From contig OX638294.1 in the NCBI GenBank assembly GCA_951812325.1, positions 3,324,859 through 3,388,858 of the forward strand: 64,000 nucleotides of DNA, read 5' to 3'. This DNA is from an uncultured Thermoanaerobaculia bacterium (GTDB lineage Bacteria > Acidobacteriota > Thermoanaerobaculia > Multivoradales > Multivoraceae). Shown here in pieces: positions 19,437-60,369 of the stretch (positions are counted from its first letter, which is position 1; each line of letters starts with the position of its first letter). Position numbers and translations under genes: made by a program. The notes below the pieces were generated by a model. That model was not told the origin of the DNA, made no database searches, and saw only the letters and a program-made list of their open reading frames with translations.

Positions 19437-20147
19437 GTGGTGAAGCCCCGGGTCGCGGCGACCATCGTTCACTGCCGCGGAGCGGTTCGGGGGGCCTTTC
19501 TGGGCGCGCAGCCCGGTACGGAGGCGCTTGGTCCGGAAGCTGCCTTCCGGGCCCTGGCGAGCCATGTCGAGGCGGCCGGGAAGGTCTCGCCCGCCTGGCT
19601 GAAGCAGTGCCACGGCGCCGAGGCGCTGCGGGCGGAGGAGCCTGGCTTCAGGGGAGAGGGCGATGCCCTGATCGTCTCGCGTCCCGGGGTCGCGGCGACC
19701 GTCTTCGTTGCCGACTGCGTACCGGTCCTCATCGCCGCCGGCGCAAGCGTCGCGGCGGTTCACGCCGGCTGGCGGGGGCTGGCGGGTGGAGTTCTCGCCT
19801 CCGCGATGCGGACCTTGCGCCGAGCCGGCGTCACCGATCCAGCCGCCGGCGAAGCCTGGATCGGGCCGGCGATCGGTCCGTGTTGCTACGAGGTGGACGA
19901 GGACGTGGCCGGCCAGGTGGCGTCTGCGAGCGGATCCGGAGTCGTCGTCCGCCGGCCGGGGCGCAAGCCGCACCTCGACCTGGCCCTGGCGGCCTCGAAG
20001 CAGCTTGGCGCGCTGGGGGTCGGCTGTACCGCGAGCTGCGTTCCCTGCGTTCGCTGCGACTCGGGCTGGTGGAGTTACCGCCGTGACGGCGCGCGCGCCG
20101 GCCGGAACTACGCCTTCATCTGGCGCGAACGGAACGGATGTCGCTGA
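19437..20147 (+). CDS. pgeF: YfiH/PgeF-family (multicopper polyphenol oxidase-like) protein
   Basis: About 236 residues. Seen: LKQCHGAEALR with one metal-site His, VADCVPVLIA with the Cys, AAVHAGWRGLAGGVL with the second His, and IGPAIGPCCYEV. These define the YfiH family, which has purine-nucleoside activity and is called peptidoglycan editing factor in some species. The start is uncertain: GTG 19437 or 19440 are the first usable codons, since the two upstream ATGs are out of frame. It is divergent from gatB. The stop lies inside the first copy of the direct repeat at 20144. Confidence 0.88.
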   Translation: MVKPRVAATIVHCRGAVRGAFLGAQPGTEALGPEAAFRALASHVEAAGKVSPAWLKQCHGAEALRAEEPGFRGEGDALIVSRPGVAATVFVADCVPVLIAAGASVAAVHAGWRGLAGGVLASAMRTLRRAGVTDPAAGEAWIGPAIGPCCYEVDEDVAGQVASASGSGVVVRRPGRKPHLDLALAASKQLGALGVGCTASCVPCVRCDSGWWSYRRDGARAGRNYAFIWRERNGCR

Positions 20148-20250
20148 CGGCCGAACCGAAGCCGGTTCCCCGTCGGACATGGTGCGCCCCGGTCGATCAG
20201 GGAAAGCGTGTCCGTCCTGACGGCCGAACCGAAGCCGGTTCCCGGTCGGA
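20144..20250. repeat. Paired direct repeat, 34 bases, period 73
   Basis: Copies at 20144-20177 and 20217-20250 share 33 of 34 bases and begin CTGACGGCCGAACCG. The first includes the pgeF stop codon. Each copy holds the small inverted repeat GAACCG/CGGTTC. The pair fills the gap between pgeF and the convergent small gene at 20254. Confidence 0.9.
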
Positions 20251-20253
20251 CCG

Positions 20254-32437: not shown

Positions 32438-34146
32438 CGTGTCCCGGCGCCCGAGCCTGACATCCCGTTGACCCGCCTCCAGGCCGGCCGGCGGTCGACC
32501 GCGAAGAGCAGCAGGGGCGGCAACCAGATGGCGCCGTAGACCCAGGGAAAGTAGTCGACGCCGGCGAGGGCCGGCAGATAGGCGAGGGGCAGGGTCGCCG
32601 ACAGCAGCAGCACGCCGCGTACCCCGAGCAGTGCCGCCCAGGGAAGGATCCAGGTCAGGTACCAGGGATAGAGCGTAGGGCTTGCCAGGAGCACGATGCC
32701 GAAGGCGGCGAATGCGGCGCCGGTCGGACCGGGACCCGTTCGCCAGACGCGAAGCCACGCCGCGCCGCCCGCCGCCAGGAGCAGGATGCGGGAAAGGAAC
32801 GCGGGATAGGTGCGGGAGTACAGCGCCTGCCAGGGAGGCTCGTCGATCTCGCCGCCGAAGACGAGGCGAATCACGTGGACGAGTCCCGCGGCAACCCGGT
32901 CGAGTTGCAGGACGTCGAGCAGGCGCCACAGCGGTTCATGGAGCGGACCGTTGTACTCCCAGCGCAGCGCGTAGAGAACCAGGCCGGGAGGCAGGCCGCC
33001 CGTCCGGACCAGGACGGCCGCCGTCGCGGGAACCAGCAGGCAGGCGGCTCCGATGGCGAACAGACGGCCCTGCGGCCGGTCGCGCCGAATCGTCCGCCAC
33101 CAGAGGGGAACTGCAGCGAAGGGAACCAGCTTGGCCAGCACGCCGAGCGCGGCAACGGCCCCGGCGGCCAGCGAACGTCGGGGACCGGACCGGGAACCAT
33201 GCCGGGCCGGGAGCAGAAAGACGCAGGCGATGACGAGCGAGGTTCCCATCACGTCGACGTGGCCCATGCCGGCGCCCTCGATCACGACCAGTGGATTCCA
33301 GACGTATGCCAGCGCCGCCACGGTCGAGCCGCGCCGCCGGGCGAGCGCGAGCAGCAGAAGGCAGCCGATCAGGTCAACCGCGGCCAGCGCGAGCTTGTAG
33401 GCGGCGAGCGGCTGCGGCAGGACGCTGGCGGCGGCGAAGAGGCCCAGCGCCAGAGGCGGGTAGACCGTGGCGACGTCGCGGTGGGCGGTCCGTTGCCACA
33501 GGTCGTCGCGCAGGCCGGTCAGTTCCGGGTCGTTCGGGGTCAGGCGATACGGATTGGCGCCGGAAGCGGCAACGCGGCCGTCCCAGAGGTAGCGATGCAC
33601 ATCGTCGGAGAGGCTCGGCGCCAGCGGCAGCGCCAGCAGGCGGAGCAGCAGCGCGACGACCATCACGCCAACGACCGGGAGTTCGTCTCTTCGCCCGGCT
33701 TCGGCGCCATGCCTCGGGTCAGGCGCGACGACCGGGACGCCGGCGACCGGGAGTTCGTCCGCCTCTTCCCGCCGCGGCGTGGAGTACCCGACGGGATCGC
33801 GGTGCGGGCGGGGGGCGACCGGCAGTTCGTCCGCCTCCTGGCGCACGCGGGGCGTTTCGGCGGCCCTGCCGGAGCTCCGCCGCGAGGGTTCCAGGCGCCT
33901 CAGTGCGCGCAGCAGGGCGCCGAAGGCCAGGAACAGCACCGCGAGGAAGAGCACGCTCGCCCACTGCGCGTCCGCCGCCGGTCGCAGTCCGGCACGGTCC
34001 AGGAGGAGGAGCCCGCCGAAGCAGGCAATCAGGGGCCAGGCGGCAGCCACCGGCTGGAGGCCGCGGGGAGGGCTTCGACCCGGAGCGGTTGGCGGTGGGG
34101 CGATCAGGGGCCGGGCGGCAGCCGCTGGGTGGGGTGCCCTTGCCAT
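32434..34146 (-). CDS. Polytopic GT-C type (DUF2029/GT87-like) mannosyltransferase
   Basis: 570 residues with about ten hydrophobic helices. Seen: SLSDDVHRYLWDGRVAASGANPY, the acidic lipid-sugar-binding loop of GT-C/GT87 transferases, VYPPLALGLFAA, VWNPLVVIEGAGMGHVD and a conserved TLYPWYLTWILPW near the C-terminus. It would transfer a sugar from a polyprenyl carrier outside the inner membrane. The N-terminal 140 residues are odd: two membrane helices, then EADELPVA-type repeats every 24 residues (the 33672 repeats), while the first 45 residues carry a PLIA repeat spaced 25 residues (34025/34100). The true start may be further in. Confidence 0.8.
   Translation of the reverse strand: MARAPHPAAAARPLIAPPPTAPGRSPPRGLQPVAAAWPLIACFGGLLLLDRAGLRPAADAQWASVLFLAVLFLAFGALLRALRRLEPSRRSSGRAAETPRVRQEADELPVAPRPHRDPVGYSTPRREEADELPVAGVPVVAPDPRHGAEAGRRDELPVVGVMVVALLLRLLALPLAPSLSDDVHRYLWDGRVAASGANPYRLTPNDPELTGLRDDLWQRTAHRDVATVYPPLALGLFAAASVLPQPLAAYKLALAAVDLIGCLLLLALARRRGSTVAALAYVWNPLVVIEGAGMGHVDVMGTSLVIACVFLLPARHGSRSGPRRSLAAGAVAALGVLAKLVPFAAVPLWWRTIRRDRPQGRLFAIGAACLLVPATAAVLVRTGGLPPGLVLYALRWEYNGPLHEPLWRLLDVLQLDRVAAGLVHVIRLVFGGEIDEPPWQALYSRTYPAFLSRILLLAAGGAAWLRVWRTGPGPTGAAFAAFGIVLLASPTLYPWYLTWILPWAALLGVRGVLLLSATLPLAYLPALAGVDYFPWVYGAIWLPPLLLFAVDRRPAWRRVNGMSGSGAGTR
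33672..33831. repeat. Three direct repeats, period 72, inside a GT-C gene
   Basis: CGACCGG(G/C)AGTTCGTC occurs at 33672-33687, 33744-33759 and 33816-33831, exactly 72 bases apart each time. Copies two and three stay similar for about 28 bases. In the gene they encode a DELPV motif every 24 residues between the second and third membrane helices. Confidence 0.9.
34025..34132. repeat. Paired direct repeat, 33 bases, period 75
   Basis: Copies at 34025-34057 and 34100-34132 match at 28 of 33 positions and share ATCAGGGGCC. In the GT-C reading frame they encode AAARPLIA and AAAWPLIA 25 residues apart at the protein N-terminus. Confidence 0.8.
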
Positions 34147-36295: not shown

Positions 36296-36401
36296 GAACA
36301 TGGCGCCTGCAAGGACCGACGAACGCCAGCAGGAGTTCCGCGCCGTCAATGGGCGTGGTGCCGGGGGGCCGAACATGGCGCCTGCAAGGACCGACGAACG
36401 C
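36296..36401. repeat. Paired direct repeat, 31 identical bases, period 75
   Basis: Copies at 36296-36326 and 36371-36401 are identical and begin GAACATGGCGCCTGCAAGG. The first starts 16 bases after the GNAT stop. The spacer ending GTGCCGGGGGGCC resembles the sequence before copy one (GGGGACCGGGGG). The same stretch has an open frame that repeats MAPARTDER, but no SD supports it as a gene. Confidence 0.92.
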
Positions 36402-41422: not shown

Positions 41423-42727
41423 CTATGGCATGTCGAGCCGTGCCATGCACGCCTCGGCCACCCGGTCGGGGTCCAGCCGCTCCATGCACGCGAAGTCGCC
41501 GCGGCTGCAGGTGCGTCGCCAGCACGGCTGGCAGTCCAGCGGCCGTTCGAGTTGCACGGCAGCCGAGCGCGATCCGTAGGGCCCGTTGCGCCCGGGATCG
41601 GTCGGTCCGAACACGGACACGCACCGGACGCCGAGCGCCGCCGCCAGGTGGGCGGGGCCGGAATCGCAGCCAAGGAACAGGGCCGCGCCGCGCAGCAGCG
41701 TCGCCAGTTCGCGCAGATCGGTCGGCGGGGCGAGCAGGACGGGCGCGTTGTCCCCGCCGGCGGCAGGGGTTCTCGCGTCCGCCGACCCTGCTTCCGCAAC
41801 GGTTGACCTCGGGGCGTTGGTTCGTGCGGCTGCGGCAACGATCTTCCCGGCCGCCAGTCGTTCCTCCCCGCCTGCGGTACCCGGAGCGTTGGTTCGTGCG
41901 GCTGCGGCAACGATCTTCTCGGCCGCCAGTCGTTCCTCCCCGCCGGCCCAGACGACGACCACGGGCAGGGCGCGTTCGCGTCCCAGCCGCCGCACCGCGG
42001 CGGCGAAGTGCGTCGCAGGCCAGAGCTTGGTGCGCCAGATCGTTCCGGGCGAGACCACGGCGTAGCCGCCGGCAGCCAGGCCGTGGCGCTCGAGGAAGTC
42101 GAGGGCCTGGGGTTCGGCAAAGTCGGGCAGCCGCCACTCCGTGAGCGGCTGCTTCCCGCCGGCCAGTCCCGAGGCGCGCAGCAGCGCCAGATTGCGGTCG
42201 ACGACATGGGTCACCGCCGGGTCGACGGCGAAACGCCGGTTCAGAAACAGGGCGTTCAGTTCACGGCTGCCCATCGCCGGCCCACCGCGGAAACCGATCC
42301 GCTGCCGGGCGCTGCTCCACCAGGCCACCAGGCCGCTCTTGGTCAGGCCCTGGACATCGATCGCCGCGTCGTAGCGGCAATTCCGGAGCTCGCGGCGGAA
42401 CCGCCTGAATGCCTTGAACTGCGCCGCCGGGCCGCGGACGCGGCGAGGGTAGACATGGAGGCGGTCGACGCCGGGGCTGCCCCGCAGGAGGTTCGCGGCG
42501 GGCTCCTGGATTGCCCAGCCGATGAACGCATCCGGATGCGCCCGGCGCAGCGCCGCCGCCACCGGGGCGGCGTGCAGGCAGTCGCCGATTGCCGACAGCC
42601 GCACCAGCAGGATGCGAAGTGGGCCGGAAGGCTGCGTTTCGGGTTCGGCGTCCGGTTCGCCGTCCGCCCGACCCCCAACCAGCAGGACGTGAAGCGGGTC
42701 GGAGGGCTGCATTTCGGTGGTCGTCAT
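41423..42727 (-). CDS. Family 9 glycosyltransferase (heptosyltransferase-like)
   Basis: 434 residues; adds heptose or a related sugar to an LPS-type core. Seen: ILLVRLSAIGDCLHAAPVAAAL near the N-terminus, VDVQGLTKSGL-like IDVQGLTKSGLVAWW, YAVVSPGTIWRTKLWPATHFA, and LFLGCDSGPAHLAAALGV with SVFGPTDPGRNGPYG. The protein is longer than usual by two in-frame duplications: an N-terminal one (QPSDPLHVLLV then QPSGPLRILLV, 25 residues apart) and an internal one (GGEERLAA.KIVAAAARTNAP twice, 24 residues apart). The start is ATG 42712 or 42727; both lie in the upstream duplicate. Confidence 0.9.
   Translation of the reverse strand: MTTTEMQPSDPLHVLLVGGRADGEPDAEPETQPSGPLRILLVRLSAIGDCLHAAPVAAALRRAHPDAFIGWAIQEPAANLLRGSPGVDRLHVYPRRVRGPAAQFKAFRRFRRELRNCRYDAAIDVQGLTKSGLVAWWSSARQRIGFRGGPAMGSRELNALFLNRRFAVDPAVTHVVDRNLALLRASGLAGGKQPLTEWRLPDFAEPQALDFLERHGLAAGGYAVVSPGTIWRTKLWPATHFAAAVRRLGRERALPVVVVWAGGEERLAAEKIVAAAARTNAPGTAGGEERLAAGKIVAAAARTNAPRSTVAEAGSADARTPAAGGDNAPVLLAPPTDLRELATLLRGAALFLGCDSGPAHLAAALGVRCVSVFGPTDPGRNGPYGSRSAAVQLERPLDCQPCWRRTCSRGDFACMERLDPDRVAEACMARLDMP
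41814..41944. repeat. Paired direct repeat, 59 bases, period 72, inside GT9 gene
   Basis: Copies 41814-41872 and 41886-41944 share 58 of 59 bases (GCGTTGGTTCGTGCGGCTGC at one end, CTCCCCGCC at the other), separated by 13 bases. They encode a 24-residue in-frame insertion in the glycosyltransferase before the CDSGPAH donor site. Confidence 0.95.
42603..42717. repeat. Paired direct repeat, 40 bases, period 75, at GT9 start
   Basis: Copies 42603-42642 and 42678-42717 match at 34 of 40 bases (ACCAGCAGGA...TTTCGG). The distal copy holds the ATG at 42712-42710; the gene-proximal copy has ACG at the matching place (42637-42635). Confidence 0.85.
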
Positions 42728-42795
42728 CGGGGTCGGGGTCCGCGGCTGTTCCGAGCATACGGCTCGCGCCCGCCGCCGCTTGGCATACTCCCGAC

Positions 42796-42902
42796 ATGGA
42801 CGACCGACAGGACGCCGACTCGCCGCTTCACCGAGGCCTGGACGGTCCTCTTGCCGCTCTACCGTCCGCCATGAACGATGGACCGGGGACCGACTCGCCG
42901 CT
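42796..42902. repeat. Weak paired repeat, 32 bases, period 75, at a gene start
   Basis: 42796-42827 and 42871-42902 match at 25 of 32 bases, with the last 13 (CCGACTCGCCGCT) identical. Both copies carry an ATG. The weakest of the series, kept because the period and placement match the others. Confidence 0.5.
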
Positions 42903-43140: not shown

Positions 43141-43704
43141 GTGAAGAAGGTCCGTCCCTGGCGCGTGGAGGCCGAGCGCGTGGTCTTCGACCACCCGCTG
43201 CTCCAGGTCGAGACCCAGGAGCTTCGGGCCGGCGGCGACCGCCGCGAGGCTCTGGTGCTGCGCTCTGCGGACTGGGTCAACGTGATTCCCCTGCTCGAGT
43301 CCGGGTCGCAGGGGCAAGGGCCGACCGTCGTCTTCGTTCGCCAGTGGCGGTTCGGGCGTGCCGCGGAGTCGCTGGAGATTCCGGGCGGCATCGTCGAAGC
43401 GGGCGAGGACGCGGAAGTCGCCGCGGGTCGGGAACTGCACGAAGAGACCGGCTACCGGGCCGGTCGGATCGAACGTCTCGGCGTGGTCGAGCCGAACCCG
43501 GCCATCTTCGACAACTTGTGCTCGCTGTGGCTGGCCCGCGACCTCGTGGACACGGGCGATCCGATCGGCGACGGCAGTGAGGAGCTGGAGGTCGTCCACG
43601 TGCCGCTGCGCGAGGTCCCGGAGCGGATCGAGAGCGGCGAGATCCGCCACTCGCTTGTCGTCACCGCCTTCCACTTCTTCGCCCGTCGCCACGGTTTCGC
43701 GTGA
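43141..43704 (+). CDS. Nudix hydrolase (ADP-ribose pyrophosphatase-like)
   Basis: 187 residues. The Nudix box GGIVEAGEDAEVAAGRELHE followed by ETGY fits Gx5Ex7REUxEExGU. Before it, VVFVRQWRFGRAAESLEIPGG resembles NudF-type enzymes (ADP-sugar diphosphatases). GTG 43141 is the start. The last five codons and stop are part of a 53-base repeat that follows, so the 3' end was duplicated downstream. Confidence 0.88.
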   Translation: MKKVRPWRVEAERVVFDHPLLQVETQELRAGGDRREALVLRSADWVNVIPLLESGSQGQGPTVVFVRQWRFGRAAESLEIPGGIVEAGEDAEVAAGRELHEETGYRAGRIERLGVVEPNPAIFDNLCSLWLARDLVDTGDPIGDGSEELEVVHVPLREVPERIESGEIRHSLVVTAFHFFARRHGFA

Positions 43705-43802
43705 GCGAACGTCGACCACGGCCCGTTCGGGCCGCCGCTCGCCACGGTTTCTCGTGAGCGAACGTCGACCATGGCCCGTTCGTGCCGCCGCTCGCCACGG
43801 CT
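43687..43802. repeat. Tandem 53-base repeat, two full copies and a partial third
   Basis: 43687-43739 and 43740-43792 share 50 of 53 bases, and a third copy begins at 43793 (CGCCACGG). It starts within the last Nudix codons, so the stop region TTTCGCGTGAGCGAACG is repeated as TTTCTCGTGAGCGAACG. The GTG in the second copy (43754) may start the HAD gene. Unlike the other pairs it is contiguous and of shorter period. Confidence 0.92.
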
Positions 43803-44485: not shown

Positions 44486-45204
44486 GCCCACCGGCCCGCC
44501 GCCGCGGCCAGCCGGTAGAGTCGGCCAAACGGAACCACCGATCTCAAGCGCGGCACGCAGCCTCGCCCAACCCCCATGCACGAGATACCACGATGGCTCG
44601 CTGCCGCGACAGACGAACACGCCGGTCCTGTTCGGCGCGCTCGTTCCTCCAACCGTTCGGCTCATGGGTGACGGGCTGTCCCTCTTGGAGGTGTAGGGGC
44701 TTTCGTGACAGCGCGTGAAGCCGAGTATCTCGGGATCTTCGTTGACTGCGTGCGGTCCTGCGCCGCGTACCGACCGAGGTTTGGCCAAGGCAGGAGGGCC
44801 GGTCTGACTCTCGCCGAGTTCCGCGATCTCCATCACGCTCAAGCTCAACCCGCCTTCCCCGCCGCGATCGATCATCCGCGGCAGTACCGCCGAGTTGATG
44901 CAGGCCGGCAGGTGGCGCGACGCGCGGACGGCGACCGGGTACGCACGCGCCGAACGACGTCTGCAGCCCCCGACTCTGCTCCGTAGCAACCAGCTCCACC
45001 GCGATGAAGTGATCGATCTTCACTTGGGTCCTCTCCACTGCGTGCGGCGTCCCATGCGCAAGCAGCCACGGTGGCGCCGTCGCCGACCGTCGCAGGGACG
45101 ACCGCGAAGTCGATCTTGCGGGAACCTGAGAGAGATGGCGGGTGAGAACACACCCTCGTTTGCGTGTCGCAGAGACGACCGCGAAGTCGATCTTGTGGGA
45201 ACCC
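44486..45204. other. Gene-poor stretch with degenerate repeats
   Basis: These 719 bases separate the HAD stop from the cyclase stop. Open frames exist on both strands (one of 90-plus codons on the minus strand containing KIDHFIAVELVATEQSR), but codon patterns break repeatedly and no family is recognised. The minus strand encodes KID.F.AV-like peptides three times, near 45000-45021, 45099-45117 and 45176-45194, corresponding to the 45091 repeats. It may be an eroded gene. Confidence 0.5.
45091..45203. repeat. Paired direct repeat, 36 bases, period 77
   Basis: Copies 45091-45126 and 45168-45203 share 34 of 36 bases (GACGACCGCGAAGTCGATCT). The second ends next to the cyclase stop codon at 45205. 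A degenerate third relative is at about 44998-45021. Confidence 0.88.
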
Positions 45205-54072: not shown

Positions 54073-54312
54073 TCAGGGTGCTTCCAGCAGCAGTCGAGAT
54101 CGGGCGGAGGCTCGATGCGGGTCGAAGAGTCTTCGGTCCCTAAGCATGGCGCAGGCGACGTGGATGAGGCGATCGGAGACCTGTCTGAGGGCTCGTCCGT
54201 AGCGGTGTCCCCTTGGTTTGCACTTGGTCTTGGTGATGGCGTCGCGTTGGGCTGCGACGCCTGCCCAGTGGTGTGCGGCATCGGCGAGGCGCTTTTTCTT
54301 GGAACTCACCGC
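54073..54312 (-). pseudogene. Transposase C-terminal remnant
   Basis: In one minus-strand frame the last 60 residues read KPRGHRYGRALRQVSDRLIH then VACAMLRDRRLFDPHR, matching the C-terminal (G)RALRxVxDRLLxVxxAMLR pattern seen in IS110/IS116-like transposases. No catalytic DEDD region and no ends are visible, and the frame upstream runs into a glycosyltransferase gene. It is an eroded IS tail between two polysaccharide genes. Confidence 0.55.
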
Positions 54313-55283
54313 CCTCTCCAACCCGTGGCCGCCGCCGCCGCCAACCGCCACAGCCCGGCGGCGGCCTCGCCGCGGCGCCCGGCCCGGCGGGGCCGGCGAA
54401 GCGGCAGCAGAGCGATGCGGAGCAGAGCGGCGAGGACCAGCATGACATTCAGCACGAGGGCGGCGCCGCGGCTGTGATGCTTGCGAGCGTATCGGTCCAG
54501 GTTGCGGTAGTAGGCGAGCAGGAAAGGGCCGTAGCCGAGCCGCGGTACGGAGGCGCCGAGGCCGTGCCGGAAGGTGGCGTCCGGCCAGTAGCGGATCGTC
54601 TCGCCCCGGTCGTGGAGCCGGCGGGCGAGGTCGACGTCCTCGAACCAGGCCGGCCAGAACTGTTCGTCCATGCGACCGACGGCTTCGAAGGCGTCGCGTC
54701 GAAGCAGCAGGGCGCAGGCCGCAGGCTGTTCGACGGGCGCCCCGGCCGCCGGCGCCGGCAGCGTGGCGGGCTCGATGAAGCTGCAGTAGCCGAGCAGCGT
54801 GCGCAGGCCGGGCAGTTGGCGCAGTTGCCAACCGGCTTGAGGAGCACCGTCCTCGTCCAGCAGCCGGGGCGCCAGGCCGGCCGTTTCCGGGTGCTGTTCC
54901 ATGCCCCGGACCAGGGACTCGAGGGCCCCGGGTTCGGGTCTGGCGTCCGTGTTGAGAATCAGCAGCAGACGTCCGTCCGCATCGGTCGCTCCGCGGTTGA
55001 CGGCCGCTGCGAAGCCGAGGTTGGCGTCCGGCTCGAGGACGTGGACGTTGGGCCGGCCGCCGCTCAACTCGCCGAGGCGCCCGCTCGAGCCGTTGTCGAC
55101 CACGACGAGTTCGAACCGAACGTCCCGGGGCCAGCTTTTCGCGAGGAGCGTGAGGTTGTCCTCGTCGTGCCAGTGCGGCGCCACCGCGCTCAGGAGCGGA
55201 GTGTCGCTCGTCGCCCGTTTTCGCCGTCGTCCGCACGTCCTGCACGTGGACGGCGAGGCGCTTTGCCCCGAGGTGTCGCTCAT
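54306..55283 (-). CDS. Family 2 glycosyltransferase (rhamnosyltransferase-like)
   Basis: 325 residues from ATG 55283, which overlaps the stop of the upstream GT2 gene as ATGA. GT-A domain: VVVDNGSSGRLGEL, NLGFAAAVNRGATDADGRLL, LILNTDARPEPGALE (DxD-like), and WPAWFEDVDLARRLHDRGE. A C-terminal membrane helix (ALVLNVMLVLAALLRIALLP) anchors it. The N-terminus is duplicated: RRRKRAMSDT and RRRKRATSDT lie 24 residues apart; only the distal copy still has the Met. Confidence 0.9.
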   Translation of the reverse strand: MSDTSGQSASPSTCRTCGRRRKRATSDTPLLSAVAPHWHDEDNLTLLAKSWPRDVRFELVVVDNGSSGRLGELSGGRPNVHVLEPDANLGFAAAVNRGATDADGRLLLILNTDARPEPGALESLVRGMEQHPETAGLAPRLLDEDGAPQAGWQLRQLPGLRTLLGYCSFIEPATLPAPAAGAPVEQPAACALLLRRDAFEAVGRMDEQFWPAWFEDVDLARRLHDRGETIRYWPDATFRHGLGASVPRLGYGPFLLAYYRNLDRYARKHHSRGAALVLNVMLVLAALLRIALLPLRRPRRAGRRGEAAAGLWRLAAAAATGWRGR

Positions 55284-55306
55284 CGCCCGTTTTCGCCGTC
55301 GTCCGC
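55201..55306. repeat. Paired direct repeat, 34 bases, period 72, at a GT2 start
   Basis: Copies 55201-55234 and 55273-55306 match at 33 of 34 bases (GTGTCGCTC.TCGCCCGTTT). The only difference is that the distal copy (55281-55283) spells the ATG start and the proximal copy spells ACG. Confidence 0.93.
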
Positions 55307-56674
55307 GCCGGGTGCGCCGGCGTGCCGTCCGTGCACCCGCTGACGGGTGCACGGACTGGTTCGCGGGTGGCGCGGATTCGCGCCACCCGAGTTCCCGCCG
55401 GCTGCCGCCGCAGGCGGCCAGGGAGACGGGCCGGCCGCGGGATTCCACGGTTCCTGACCGCGACCGAAACCGGCGAAGCGCGGCAGGAGCCGGACCGCGC
55501 GACTCCAGGCGAACAGGAGATCGACCGCTTTCGGGCGTGGAGAATCCCCCGGCAGCGCTTCGGCCGTTTCACCCCTGAACAGATCGACGGCGTCCCGCGA
55601 CAGAAGCCCCGGCAACAGCAGCCAGAAGCTCCGGCCCGACCGCGTCGCCAGAACCAGCAGGCGATTGCAGTAGATGCGGCGAACCCGCCGCCGGGCGGCG
55701 CGGCGGCCGCGGCTGGACAACGCGCCGGCATGTTCAATGCGGGCCGCCGGCGCCAGTACGGACTCGTACGATGCGCGGCGCAGCCGGTCGGCGAGTTCGA
55801 CGTCCTCGTAGTAGCTGTCGAGCCGCTCGTTGAAGGGCCGGAGCGGCGCCCCCGCCGGGCTCACGGCGACGAGCGCCTCGCGGCGGTAGATGGCCGCGGT
55901 GGCGGACACACCGTAGATGGGCGTCGGCGACCCGCCTGCCGGCGGCGCGGGTTTGCCGCGGTCGACCTGGATCGCCTGCCAGCGGCGGTTCCACGCCAGG
56001 CCGGCGCCGTCGATGCGTGCTTCGTCCTTGCCGTCACCGGGCGGAAGCAGGTTGAGTCCCTGCGCCGCCGCGAGCGGGGAGTCGGCGCAGATCCGCGGGT
56101 CGGCGCCGTTGCAAGCGCCGAGGGCCGCCAGCAACGTTCGGGTCCAGCCGGTCGCCAGCACGGCGTCATCGTTCACCAGGGCGATCAGGCGGCCGCGGCT
56201 GACCGCGATGCCGGCGTTGGCCGCGCGGGCGAATCCTGCCGGTTCGGGAAGCTGCGCGATCCGCGGCGACCGCTCGAAGGCGGCGGGATGATTCGACGCG
56301 AACTGCCGCGCGAGTTCCCTGAGCGCTGCCGGACCGTCGGCGGGAGCGGAACGGTTGACCTGGTCGGCGGTTCCGCTGCCGACGAGCTTCCCGCTCTCCC
56401 GCGCCAGGTCGCGAGAGTGCGGCCACCACCATCCCCAGCCGGGTCGCGATCTTCGTCGCCCGTTCCTGACCCGAATCGGCCGCTGCTGGTCAAGACCGGC
56501 TTTCGCGGCCGGCTGCTGCCAGACGACGATCAGTTCGGCCGTCGCGCCGGTTTCCGCCGCGTCCCGGTAAATGGACTCCAGACAGCCCGCGACATGCTCC
56601 GGTACGCCGACCGTTGGAACGACGTAGGAGAGTGCCGGCGCCTGGGCCGACCCGGCGGCGGACCCGTCGGTCAA
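55280..56674 (-). CDS. Family 2 glycosyltransferase
   Basis: 464 residues from TTG 56674, which overlaps the TGA of the preceding membrane-protein gene as TTGA. Seen: ALSYVVPTVGVPEHVAGCLE at the start, ELIVVWQQ, NAGIAVSRGRLIALVNDDAV (DD), ATAAIYRREALVAV and RLDSYYEDVELADRLRR (ED), so a GT2 domain is present but longer than usual with a 50-residue insertion (GPAALRELARQFASNHPAAF). The C-terminal about 40 residues (NPRHPRTSPCTRQRV) are translated from the double-hairpin element, so the end of the protein was probably replaced. Confidence 0.85.
   Translation of the reverse strand: MTDGSAAGSAQAPALSYVVPTVGVPEHVAGCLESIYRDAAETGATAELIVVWQQPAAKAGLDQQRPIRVRNGRRRSRPGWGWWWPHSRDLARESGKLVGSGTADQVNRSAPADGPAALRELARQFASNHPAAFERSPRIAQLPEPAGFARAANAGIAVSRGRLIALVNDDAVLATGWTRTLLAALGACNGADPRICADSPLAAAQGLNLLPPGDGKDEARIDGAGLAWNRRWQAIQVDRGKPAPPAGGSPTPIYGVSATAAIYRREALVAVSPAGAPLRPFNERLDSYYEDVELADRLRRASYESVLAPAARIEHAGALSSRGRRAARRRVRRIYCNRLLVLATRSGRSFWLLLPGLLSRDAVDLFRGETAEALPGDSPRPKAVDLLFAWSRAVRLLPRFAGFGRGQEPWNPAAGPSPWPPAAAAGGNSGGANPRHPRTSPCTRQRVHGRHAGAPGADDGENGR
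55329..55388. repeat. Second copy of the double-hairpin element
   Basis: Hairpin 1 (55329-55354, 11-bp stem, CTGA loop), linker ACTGGTTCGC (55355-55364) and hairpin 2 (55365-55388, 10-bp stem, GATT loop). Stem 1 differs from the 21944 copy by one base on each side (G-C becomes A-T), keeping the pair. It lies inside the 3' end of a GT2 gene. Confidence 0.88.
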
Positions 56675-58488
56675 GGCCCGGCAGACCGGCCGACGTGGAG
56701 GGCGAAAAAGAGGATCACCTCGACCTCGGCGGGGAGGTCCGGGTCGCGGGTGATGACCAGGTCGCCGGTTCCACAGAGGGAAGAGAGATCGAACTCGGCG
56801 CGGTAGCGGGCGCCGAAGAAGGGACCGCCGGCGCCGGTCGCGACCCAGTGCAGCCAGGGCTCGCGGCCCGCCGCGGCGCCGCTTGCGCGCGCCGACCATT
56901 CGCCGGTGTGATCGCCGTGCAGCACCTCGACGCCAGGGGGACTGGCGCCGATGCGGGCCACCGGCTGACCCGCGGCGACCCCGGCGCCGTGGGCGACCGC
57001 CGAATCGAGCACCAGGGTGGCGCAGCCGGCCGCTGCGGCTTCCCATCGTGGCTGGTCCGCCGTCAACACCTGCCTGGCCGAGCCGAGCAGCGTCTGCCGC
57101 GGCTCGAACGCCCCCCAGGAGCCGAGGGCGGCCGCCGTCAGCACGACGACGCCGACCGCCAGGACGATCGCCCGCGGCGTGGGCGCCCTTCGCACCAGCA
57201 CGCAGACGCCGCGTCCGATCAGGATCAGGACGATCAGTCCGAGCCAGCGATCAAAGGCCGTATCGAGTCCCAGAGCGCTCAAACGATCGTCGAGATGCGC
57301 GGACCGCAGCCACGGAAAGGTCGCCGAGAGCGACGCGAACACGAGCAGGCTGCCCTGCCAGCAGAATCCGAACACGGCTGCGTCGCCGTGCAGGCCGATC
57401 CCGTGCCAGGGCCCGGTCGGAGGCGGGTCGTCGGCCGAGGCGGCGTCTGGCCGCCGGGCGCTCAGCACGGTCCACAAGGCGATGCCCGCCAGCAGGGCCT
57501 GCGTGGGCGGCAGAAAGCGCAGCCCGCCGACGGAGAGGAGGACGGCCGCCGCCACGGTGTGCAGCTTGCCCCGACCGACCAGGTTCGGCGCCGCAAGGAG
57601 GACCAGGGGCAATCCGGCGAGCGCCGCGGGCCAGGGCGCCGGCGCGGCGGGCGGCAGCCCGAGGGTCAGGGCGCCGGCCACAACCAGGACGATGGCGAAG
57701 GCGAACCGTCGCCAGACGACGGCGGCCGCCATCGCGGTGAGCAGCACCCCGAACGCGGGCTCGCGCACGAGAACGAGGCCCAGGATCAACGCCAGGCCGA
57801 ACCCCAGTGTCGCCGCCGCGCGCGACCAGCGCTCCTCGAGCGCCTGAGCGGCGGCGTCGGCGAGGGCCGCTGTGGCCAGCACCAGGACGACATTCGAGCG
57901 CACGCCGCCCCCGACCAGGATCAGGGCCGCGGCGCCCGCGAGGGCCGGAGCGCCCAACCGCGCGAACAGGGCGGTCAGGACGACCGCCGCCGCGGCGGGG
58001 ATGGCGACGAGTACGACCAGCAGCCGGAGCGCTGAACCGTCGAGCAGCTCGCCCTGCCGCAGGAGCAGGTTGAGTCCGATCAGGGCGGACGCCAGGACGG
58101 CGCCGAGGTGCAGGAGGCGGCCAGGGGCCAGCGAACCGGGCGGCGCCAGCAACTCGGCCCGGCGAGCGACCAGGCTGTCGACGAGAAGCGCGGCGGGACC
58201 CAGACAGAGCAGGGCCCCCACCGCCGTCGCGCGGGCCGGACCGTGGGGCGGCACGGCCGCGAACGCGACGACGGTCAGCACCGGCAGAGCCAGCGCTGCC
58301 GGACTCAGCGGGCGACGCGCGACACCGGCCGCGGCGATCAGGACGGTGGTCGCCGCCAGCGCCAGAAAACGCCCCTCGGCCGCCGCCTCCGGGTTGCGCT
58401 CGACCCCGGCCAACCCGAACATCGCCAGGCCCGCAAGCAACGGCGGCAGGGCAGCCACGAAGGGCGGCGGCGAACCAGCGGCGGTCAT
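56671..58488 (-). CDS. Large polytopic membrane protein of the polysaccharide cluster
   Basis: 605 residues with about twelve hydrophobic helices (for example [64 protein letters not shown]), followed by a soluble C-terminal domain of about 130 residues with [20 protein letters not shown] and [14 protein letters not shown], rich in Gly and strands. I do not find the Wzy/WaaL signature firmly, but an O-antigen polymerase- or ligase-like role fits its place. Stop overlaps the next GT2 start. Confidence 0.7.
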
Positions 58489-60240: not shown

Positions 60241-60260
60241 ACCAGAAAGGCAGACGAGAG

Positions 60261-60369
60261 CGAACGCGGGGGCGCACGGTCAAGCCGCGAGACCGAGCGA
60301 GGAGCGGCGCGGCCTGCGCGGCGTTCCGGGACGGCGAACGCGGGGGCGCACGGTCAGCCCGCGAGACCG
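60261..60369. repeat. Paired direct repeat, 35 bases, period 74
   Basis: Copies 60261-60295 and 60335-60369 match at 33 of 35 bases (CGAACGCGGGGGCGCACGGT). It sits in the gap between serS and the phosphatase gene. The intervening 39 bases are unrelated. Confidence 0.9.

Follow-up and report, generated by a model that had tools for sequence, protein, structure and literature searches.

The window, a stretch of 64,000 nucleotides from the chromosome of an uncultured Thermoanaerobaculia bacterium, carries on its minus strand a glycosyltransferase gene of the GT2 type (Pfam Glycos_transf_2; 54306-55283 when read from its outer ATG) and, upstream of it, another GT2 open reading frame (55280-57046, minus strand) that ends in TGA. 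A direct-repeat scan found, between these two genes, the two 34-nt copies described in an initial annotation, at 55201-55234 and 55273-55306, with an offset of 72 nt, 38 nt between the arms and exactly one mismatch. This mismatch is G/A on the plus strand, that is, ACG/ATG in the direction of the gene. The outer copy (A1 in gene direction; 55273-55306, minus strand) holds the ATG, which overlaps the upstream TGA as ATGA, whereas the inner copy (A2; 55201-55234, minus strand) has its ATG changed to ACG.

Conceptual translation from the outer ATG, the predicted start, gave 24 additional N-terminal residues, MSDTSGQSASPSTCRTCGRRRKRATSDTPLL... The claim that the protein had gained these residues and lost an internal start was borne out by the orthologues, in which the long form is the derived one. 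Of 16 loci compared, some of which represent the same genome twice, ten gave a readable start region, and among these the long N-terminus was found only in the window's genome and in the sister genome G016, while relatives G009, G007, G015 and G013 have the short start. The possibility that all orthologues have the long N-terminus and lack the repeat therefore fails, because four other lineages carry the short GT2 start.

The same site in relative G009 has a single copy of the target (A), both flanks being continuous, and lacks the intervening piece (x; 55235-55272, minus strand, 38 nt, the size of a spacer). The change at the GT2 site was therefore from p-A-q to p-A-x-A-q, where x is 38 nt long; the insertion is shared with G016 at 98% identity. 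To describe the locus as a duplicated start region is incomplete: the event is a 72-nt insertion, in which 38 nt that the empty site lacks are combined with a target-site duplication. The start codon was doubled because it is located inside the duplicated target, and not by an event specific to starts. The target spanned the junction of the stop and start codons, so the ATGA coupling was retained at the outer copy, and the length of 72 nt kept the reading frame and added 24 residues. Both the duplication of the start and the loss of the inner ATG are best explained as side effects of the insertion.

Other repeat pairs in the window

Close direct repeats (offsets 20-300, score of at least 20) formed 11 rows in the window, nine of them with offsets of 72-77; of the remaining two rows, one is a pair of tRNAs and the other a tandem repeat of 53 nt. 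The replacement of the inner ATG by ACG that had also been noted for a GT9 gene was found in an older pair of the same class, in the start region of the open reading frame at 41423-42727 (minus strand). The arms of this pair are located at 42603-42642 and 42678-42717 (offset 75) and read EMQPSDPLHVLLV (outer) and ETQPSGPLRILLV (inner). Three other pairs, which like the GT2 pair are referred to below as scars, have arms at 60260-60295 and 60334-60369 (x at 60296-60333), at 45089-45126 and 45166-45203 (x at 45127-45165), and at 20144-20178 and 20217-20251 (x at 20179-20216). The scar at 60260-60369 (chromosomal position 3385118) lies between genes and has an exact empty site in G016, the x of the scar at 45089-45203 has a distant match on the host's own chromosome, and in G016 the flanks of the scar at 20144-20251 join up around a single copy to within 6 nt. 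The direct-repeat scan also gave a pair of the same class with identical arms at 36296-36326 and 36371-36401 (offset 75).

Several repeats in the window have other structures. At 33651-33844 a segment of about 37 nt occurs three times, at spacings of 72 and 72, with two different pieces between the copies and slightly shifted boundaries; this could be the product of nested insertions or consist of coding repeats. The GT9 gene contains at 41810-41944 an in-frame tandem duplication of 72 nt with 63-nt arms, which adds 24 residues and shares the period of the scars, but in which x is doubled too. The 53-nt tandem repeat at 43680-43800 shows an ACG/ATG difference and is a true tandem duplication, outside the scar class. 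A weak pair at 42791-42902 (37 nt, 78%, offset 75) has an ATG in both arms and is perhaps an old scar.

Genome-wide distribution of the scars and their empty sites

A scan of 1.6 Mb of the host chromosome (4.63 Mb, one contig) for isolated pairs with offsets of 25-300 gave 42 pairs, of which 31 have offsets of 69-78 (the 36/37-nt class) and four more fit a period of 61 nt, the size of type I-E. These counts do not include the GT2 and GT9 pairs, which the filters of the scan removed; the GT2 pair (3380059; from the empty-site comparison on) and, from a later step on, the GT9 pair (3367461) and the triple copy 181836 were put back by hand, the isolation filter or the threshold having excluded them. 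At a score of 24, 33 pairs had offsets of 69-79 while six were spread over 260 other offsets, which leads to an expectation of 0.25 in 11 offsets; at a score of 18, the numbers were 43 and 21, and the expectation was 0.89. Twenty-two scars have nearly identical arms of 34-41 nt around an x that measures 31-41 nt. Scars elsewhere in the genome are located both between genes and inside genes, and the scars are single A-x-A units with no repeat in common, as opposed to a functional CRISPR array, which has several repeats, different spacers and cas genes in its vicinity. The offset statistics were made after three rows had been removed because they are coding or short repeats: 3317452, which we read as leucine-rich repeats, 3532226 and 68589. 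The comparison of insert ends left aside these three and 181836. Six G016 sites held in common with the host genome were excluded from the analyses of motif and arm length, reading frame, insert ends and offsets.

Two further units of the host genome were observed. The region 181836-182015 has the form A-x-A-x-A (offset 71) with identical x, resembles a two-spacer array unit and has no cas1 locus nearby. At 1674343, beside the type I-G locus, two I-E-type repeats form an isolated pair that encloses a single spacer of 32 nt.

The list of 55 sites counts the shared ones once for each genome, and for 22 of the 55 a place in another genome could be assigned. Fifteen distinct sites were testable for absence, and nine of these, including the GT2 site and the I-E-sized G016 site 540893, collapse exactly to a single copy; two others collapse within 3 nt, one within 6 nt and three neither way. 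The G016 scars 492843, 502528 and 540893 are empty in the window's genome. Conversely, six tested sites of the host are present in place in G016, which was assembled separately, with identities of 96-100%, one of them being the coding repeat 3317452. Where only the host and G016 differ, an apparent empty site could also result from precise excision between the arms, but this reading is strained where outgroups without Cas1 or several lineages are empty.

The offset was divisible by three in 22 of the 41 distinct scars (p = 0.006 against 1/3), and so were 13 of 36 periods of CRISPR arrays (scars against arrays, Fisher p = 0.17). In-frame selection on the scars is only suggested by this excess, because the array periods show divisibility by three too. 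In a codon-usage test of frame, which is too crude for this purpose, five of 49 sites had the same frame through both flanks, and four of these five had an offset divisible by three and no stop.

We compared the target sequences with random positions of the genome. Targets of the 36/37-nt class did not resemble CRISPR repeats, the mean numbers of matches being 13.8, 13.6 and 13.4 compared with 14.4, 14.1 and 13.9 for the random genome, and they did not preferentially form hairpins (mean fold energy of -10.5 compared with -10.0, sd 4.0). A motif search in two orientations gave a weak value of 4.97, compared with a mean of 4.10 (sd 0.37, maximum 4.86) for 30 random sets. In laboratory E. coli, off-target sites reportedly look like the native locus (leader-repeat). 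The targets found here showed no such likeness, which we treated as a habit of the E. coli type I-E system rather than as a definition.

CRISPR modules, cas1 and the origin of the inserts

The host genome has four cas1 loci, whose systems were typed with PADLOC. Two are type I-G modules with Cas4-Cas1 fusions, 36-nt repeats and array periods of 70-75, one of these arrays also having rows with periods of 62 and 82 that come from an internally repetitive spacer. A third cas1 adjoins type III-B genes (Cas10b, Cmr4, Cmr5 and Cmr6/Cmr1-like) with 37-nt repeats and periods of 73-80, and the fourth belongs to a type I-E module with a 29-nt repeat array and a period of 61. The sizes of the scar arms and inserts are those of the repeats and spacers of the host's own arrays, and both scars and arrays have two size classes. 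For scar 1348017, subtracting the donor match of 38 nt from the offset of 75 gives 37 nt, the length of the III-B repeat. The mean scar offset was 74.1, compared with 76.3 for the III-B array (p = 0.0015) and with 72.0 (p = 0.017) and 73.0 (p = 0.19) for the I-G arrays; no single module is matched cleanly, since the offsets of the scars differ from those of the III-B array and of one I-G array.

Among the 31 genomes searched, 15 have a cas1; none was found in G010 and G015, which belong to the same genus. The same scan gave no isolated pair at offsets of 25-300 in 400 kb of each of these two genomes, while in the two genomes that bear cas1 there were 31 pairs of the class in 1.6 Mb (host) and 15 in 336 kb (G016). 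For 40 non-redundant pairs, the chance of finding zero in 0.8 Mb at an equal rate is about 1e-6 to 7e-8, in a comparison of two scarred and two unscarred genomes. The first Cas1 of G016 shares 98% identity with the host's III-B Cas1 and the second 37%, the best match of G009 being also 37%. The cas1 search found no I-E-like Cas1 in G016, though its site 540893 is I-E-sized. Because G016 carries this 98% identical Cas1, the III-B module is, on sequence grounds, the best candidate among the four for the acting adaptation module, if not a proved one.

When 45 inserts were searched together and 40 of the 223 candidates were scored, at least five of the 34 host inserts had a second place in the host genome. 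Of 1500 random 37-mers, 57 likewise occur a second time in the 1.6 Mb, so that a second occurrence by itself carries little weight, and three of the five inserts were therefore searched singly, with their arms and flanks. The x at 45127-45165 was 100% identical over 40 nt to 2315583-2315622 of the host chromosome, the arms being outside the match. The x of scar 1348017 was 100% identical over 38 nt to two distant places, the match covering x and not the arms, and the x at 20179-20216 was 94% identical over 36 nt to 2235129-2235164, with the arms again outside. These matches end at the edges of x, so host DNA is at least one source of the inserts. The x of 3289468 matched the host's own 640585, in a gene which we take to be ComM-like, at 27 of 30 positions, and all differences in the 10-codon core are synonymous, the donor having drifted. 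For the x of the GT2 scar, no donor with up to three mismatches was found in 21 genomes of the same genus, except for the same scar in G016, and none was found there for the x at 60296-60333. Exact cores of 22-26 nt from five inserts had no match in viral contigs. Inspection by eye of the 45 inserts revealed no shared terminal sequence of the kind that a transposon or MITE has.

Proposed mechanism, rival explanations and known systems

We consider it highly probable that the GT2 pair is a scar left when Cas1-Cas2 integrated a spacer off target and the target was duplicated over the length of a repeat; part of the DNA integrated in such events would be self DNA. The Cas1-Cas2 integrase would take up a double-stranded fragment of about 38 nt (the prespacer), and for several scars the insert does match the host chromosome. 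The two ends of the fragment would be joined to opposite strands of a stretch of about 36-37 nt outside any array, and gap filling would duplicate this stretch, giving target-x-target as it gives repeat-spacer-repeat in an array. In the GT2 gene, the inner ATG would have become ACG after the insertion. The part played by Cas1-Cas2, the module at work among the four and a relaxed choice of targets are what we infer from these observations.

Other origins of the pairs were weighed against the same data. A non-CRISPR integrase or transposase that makes a staggered cut of about 36 nt and inserts fragments of about 38 nt would agree with targets devoid of a repeat-like motif and with the lack of a clean fit to the period of any one array. 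It is nevertheless unlikely, given that the scars and the CRISPR arrays of the host agree in their two size classes, that scars are absent from the two relatives without cas1 and that the inserts, unlike those of a transposon, have no common ends by eye; we know of no integrase or transposase with these properties. That inserts can copy distant chromosomal DNA is also what a templated insertion during DNA repair or transformation would produce (end-joining filler, microhomology-mediated copying or short-patch illegitimate recombination). Insertions of the repair type vary in length and do not duplicate a target of fixed size, whereas the 22 sites with nearly identical arms keep to 34-41 nt for the arms and 31-41 nt for x, which makes such an origin very improbable.

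We give slightly less credit still to slippage during replication, or unequal crossing-over, as the source of a local tandem duplication of which one half later diverged. The arms are direct repeats, and the window does contain true tandems (43686, period 53; 41810, period 72, 63-nt arms), but the empty sites have A once and neither of their flanks contains x, which rules out a plain tandem duplication. Moreover, three scars hold an x that derives from a distant part of the chromosome, and the lengths of arms and x are fixed, where a slippage product would hold x twice. Least credible of all is an artefact of assembly or sequencing, or a set of ordinary coding repeats: some rows of the scan are indeed coding repeats (3317452), but syntenic scars are shared with the separately assembled G016, the GT2 scar at 98% identity.

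Beyond the GT2 locus, we lean slightly towards a broader reading of off-target Cas1-Cas2 integration, in which, in this acidobacterial lineage, an adaptation integrase, most likely that of the III-B module, lost its target specificity and became a chromosome-wide inserter of self DNA. Extrapolated from 31 in 1.6 Mb to the full 4.63 Mb, its detectable scars would number about 90 per genome; some would lengthen proteins in frame, and the formation of immune memories would be a continuing source of gene variation. If this is true, CRISPR adaptation is a natural insertional mutagen of its own host, acting at tens of sites per genome, and outcomes of scars that change proteins have persisted through speciation. 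The signature to be searched for is a direct duplication of repeat length around an insert of spacer length, together with empty sites in relatives. It could be used to study the leakiness of adaptation across cas types, the origin of array-free 'neo-CRISPR' seeds and the cost of an adaptation module.

The proposed integration resembles that of casposons by their casposase in that an integrase of the Cas1 family would carry out a staggered joining that duplicates the target site. Casposons are elements of kilobases with terminal repeats and a target duplication of about 14-15 bp; the inserts described here differ in measuring about 38 nt, in having no shared ends and in being flanked by a duplication of about 36-37 nt. 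The 2018 work of Nivala, Shipman and Church reportedly dealt mainly with Cas1-Cas2 overexpression in E. coli and integration at locus-like sites, with few putative natural cases. The scars are like its non-canonical integrations and neo-CRISPR loci in that an insert the size of a spacer is flanked by two copies, each as long as a repeat, of a duplicated chromosomal site that belongs to no array. They are unlike them in that dozens of natural scars occur in one genome, in a host with types I-G, III-B and I-E, with several self donors, some altered proteins and targets that are not repeat-like.

Later papers cite Nivala et al. 2018 for off-target integration in vivo, and a review of adaptation in E. 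coli states that Cas1-Cas2 integrates outside arrays in vitro. The ectopic spacer acquisition reported for CRISPR3 of Streptococcus thermophilus is similar in that the adaptation machinery integrates at a wrong position; it occurs inside the array, whereas the scars reported here are spread across the chromosome, in and between genes. In the open-licence literature we found no publication that describes natural scars by the dozen in a single genome. Off-target integration is already known; what looks new is that such scars, natural and gene-altering, occur by the dozen in a single genome.
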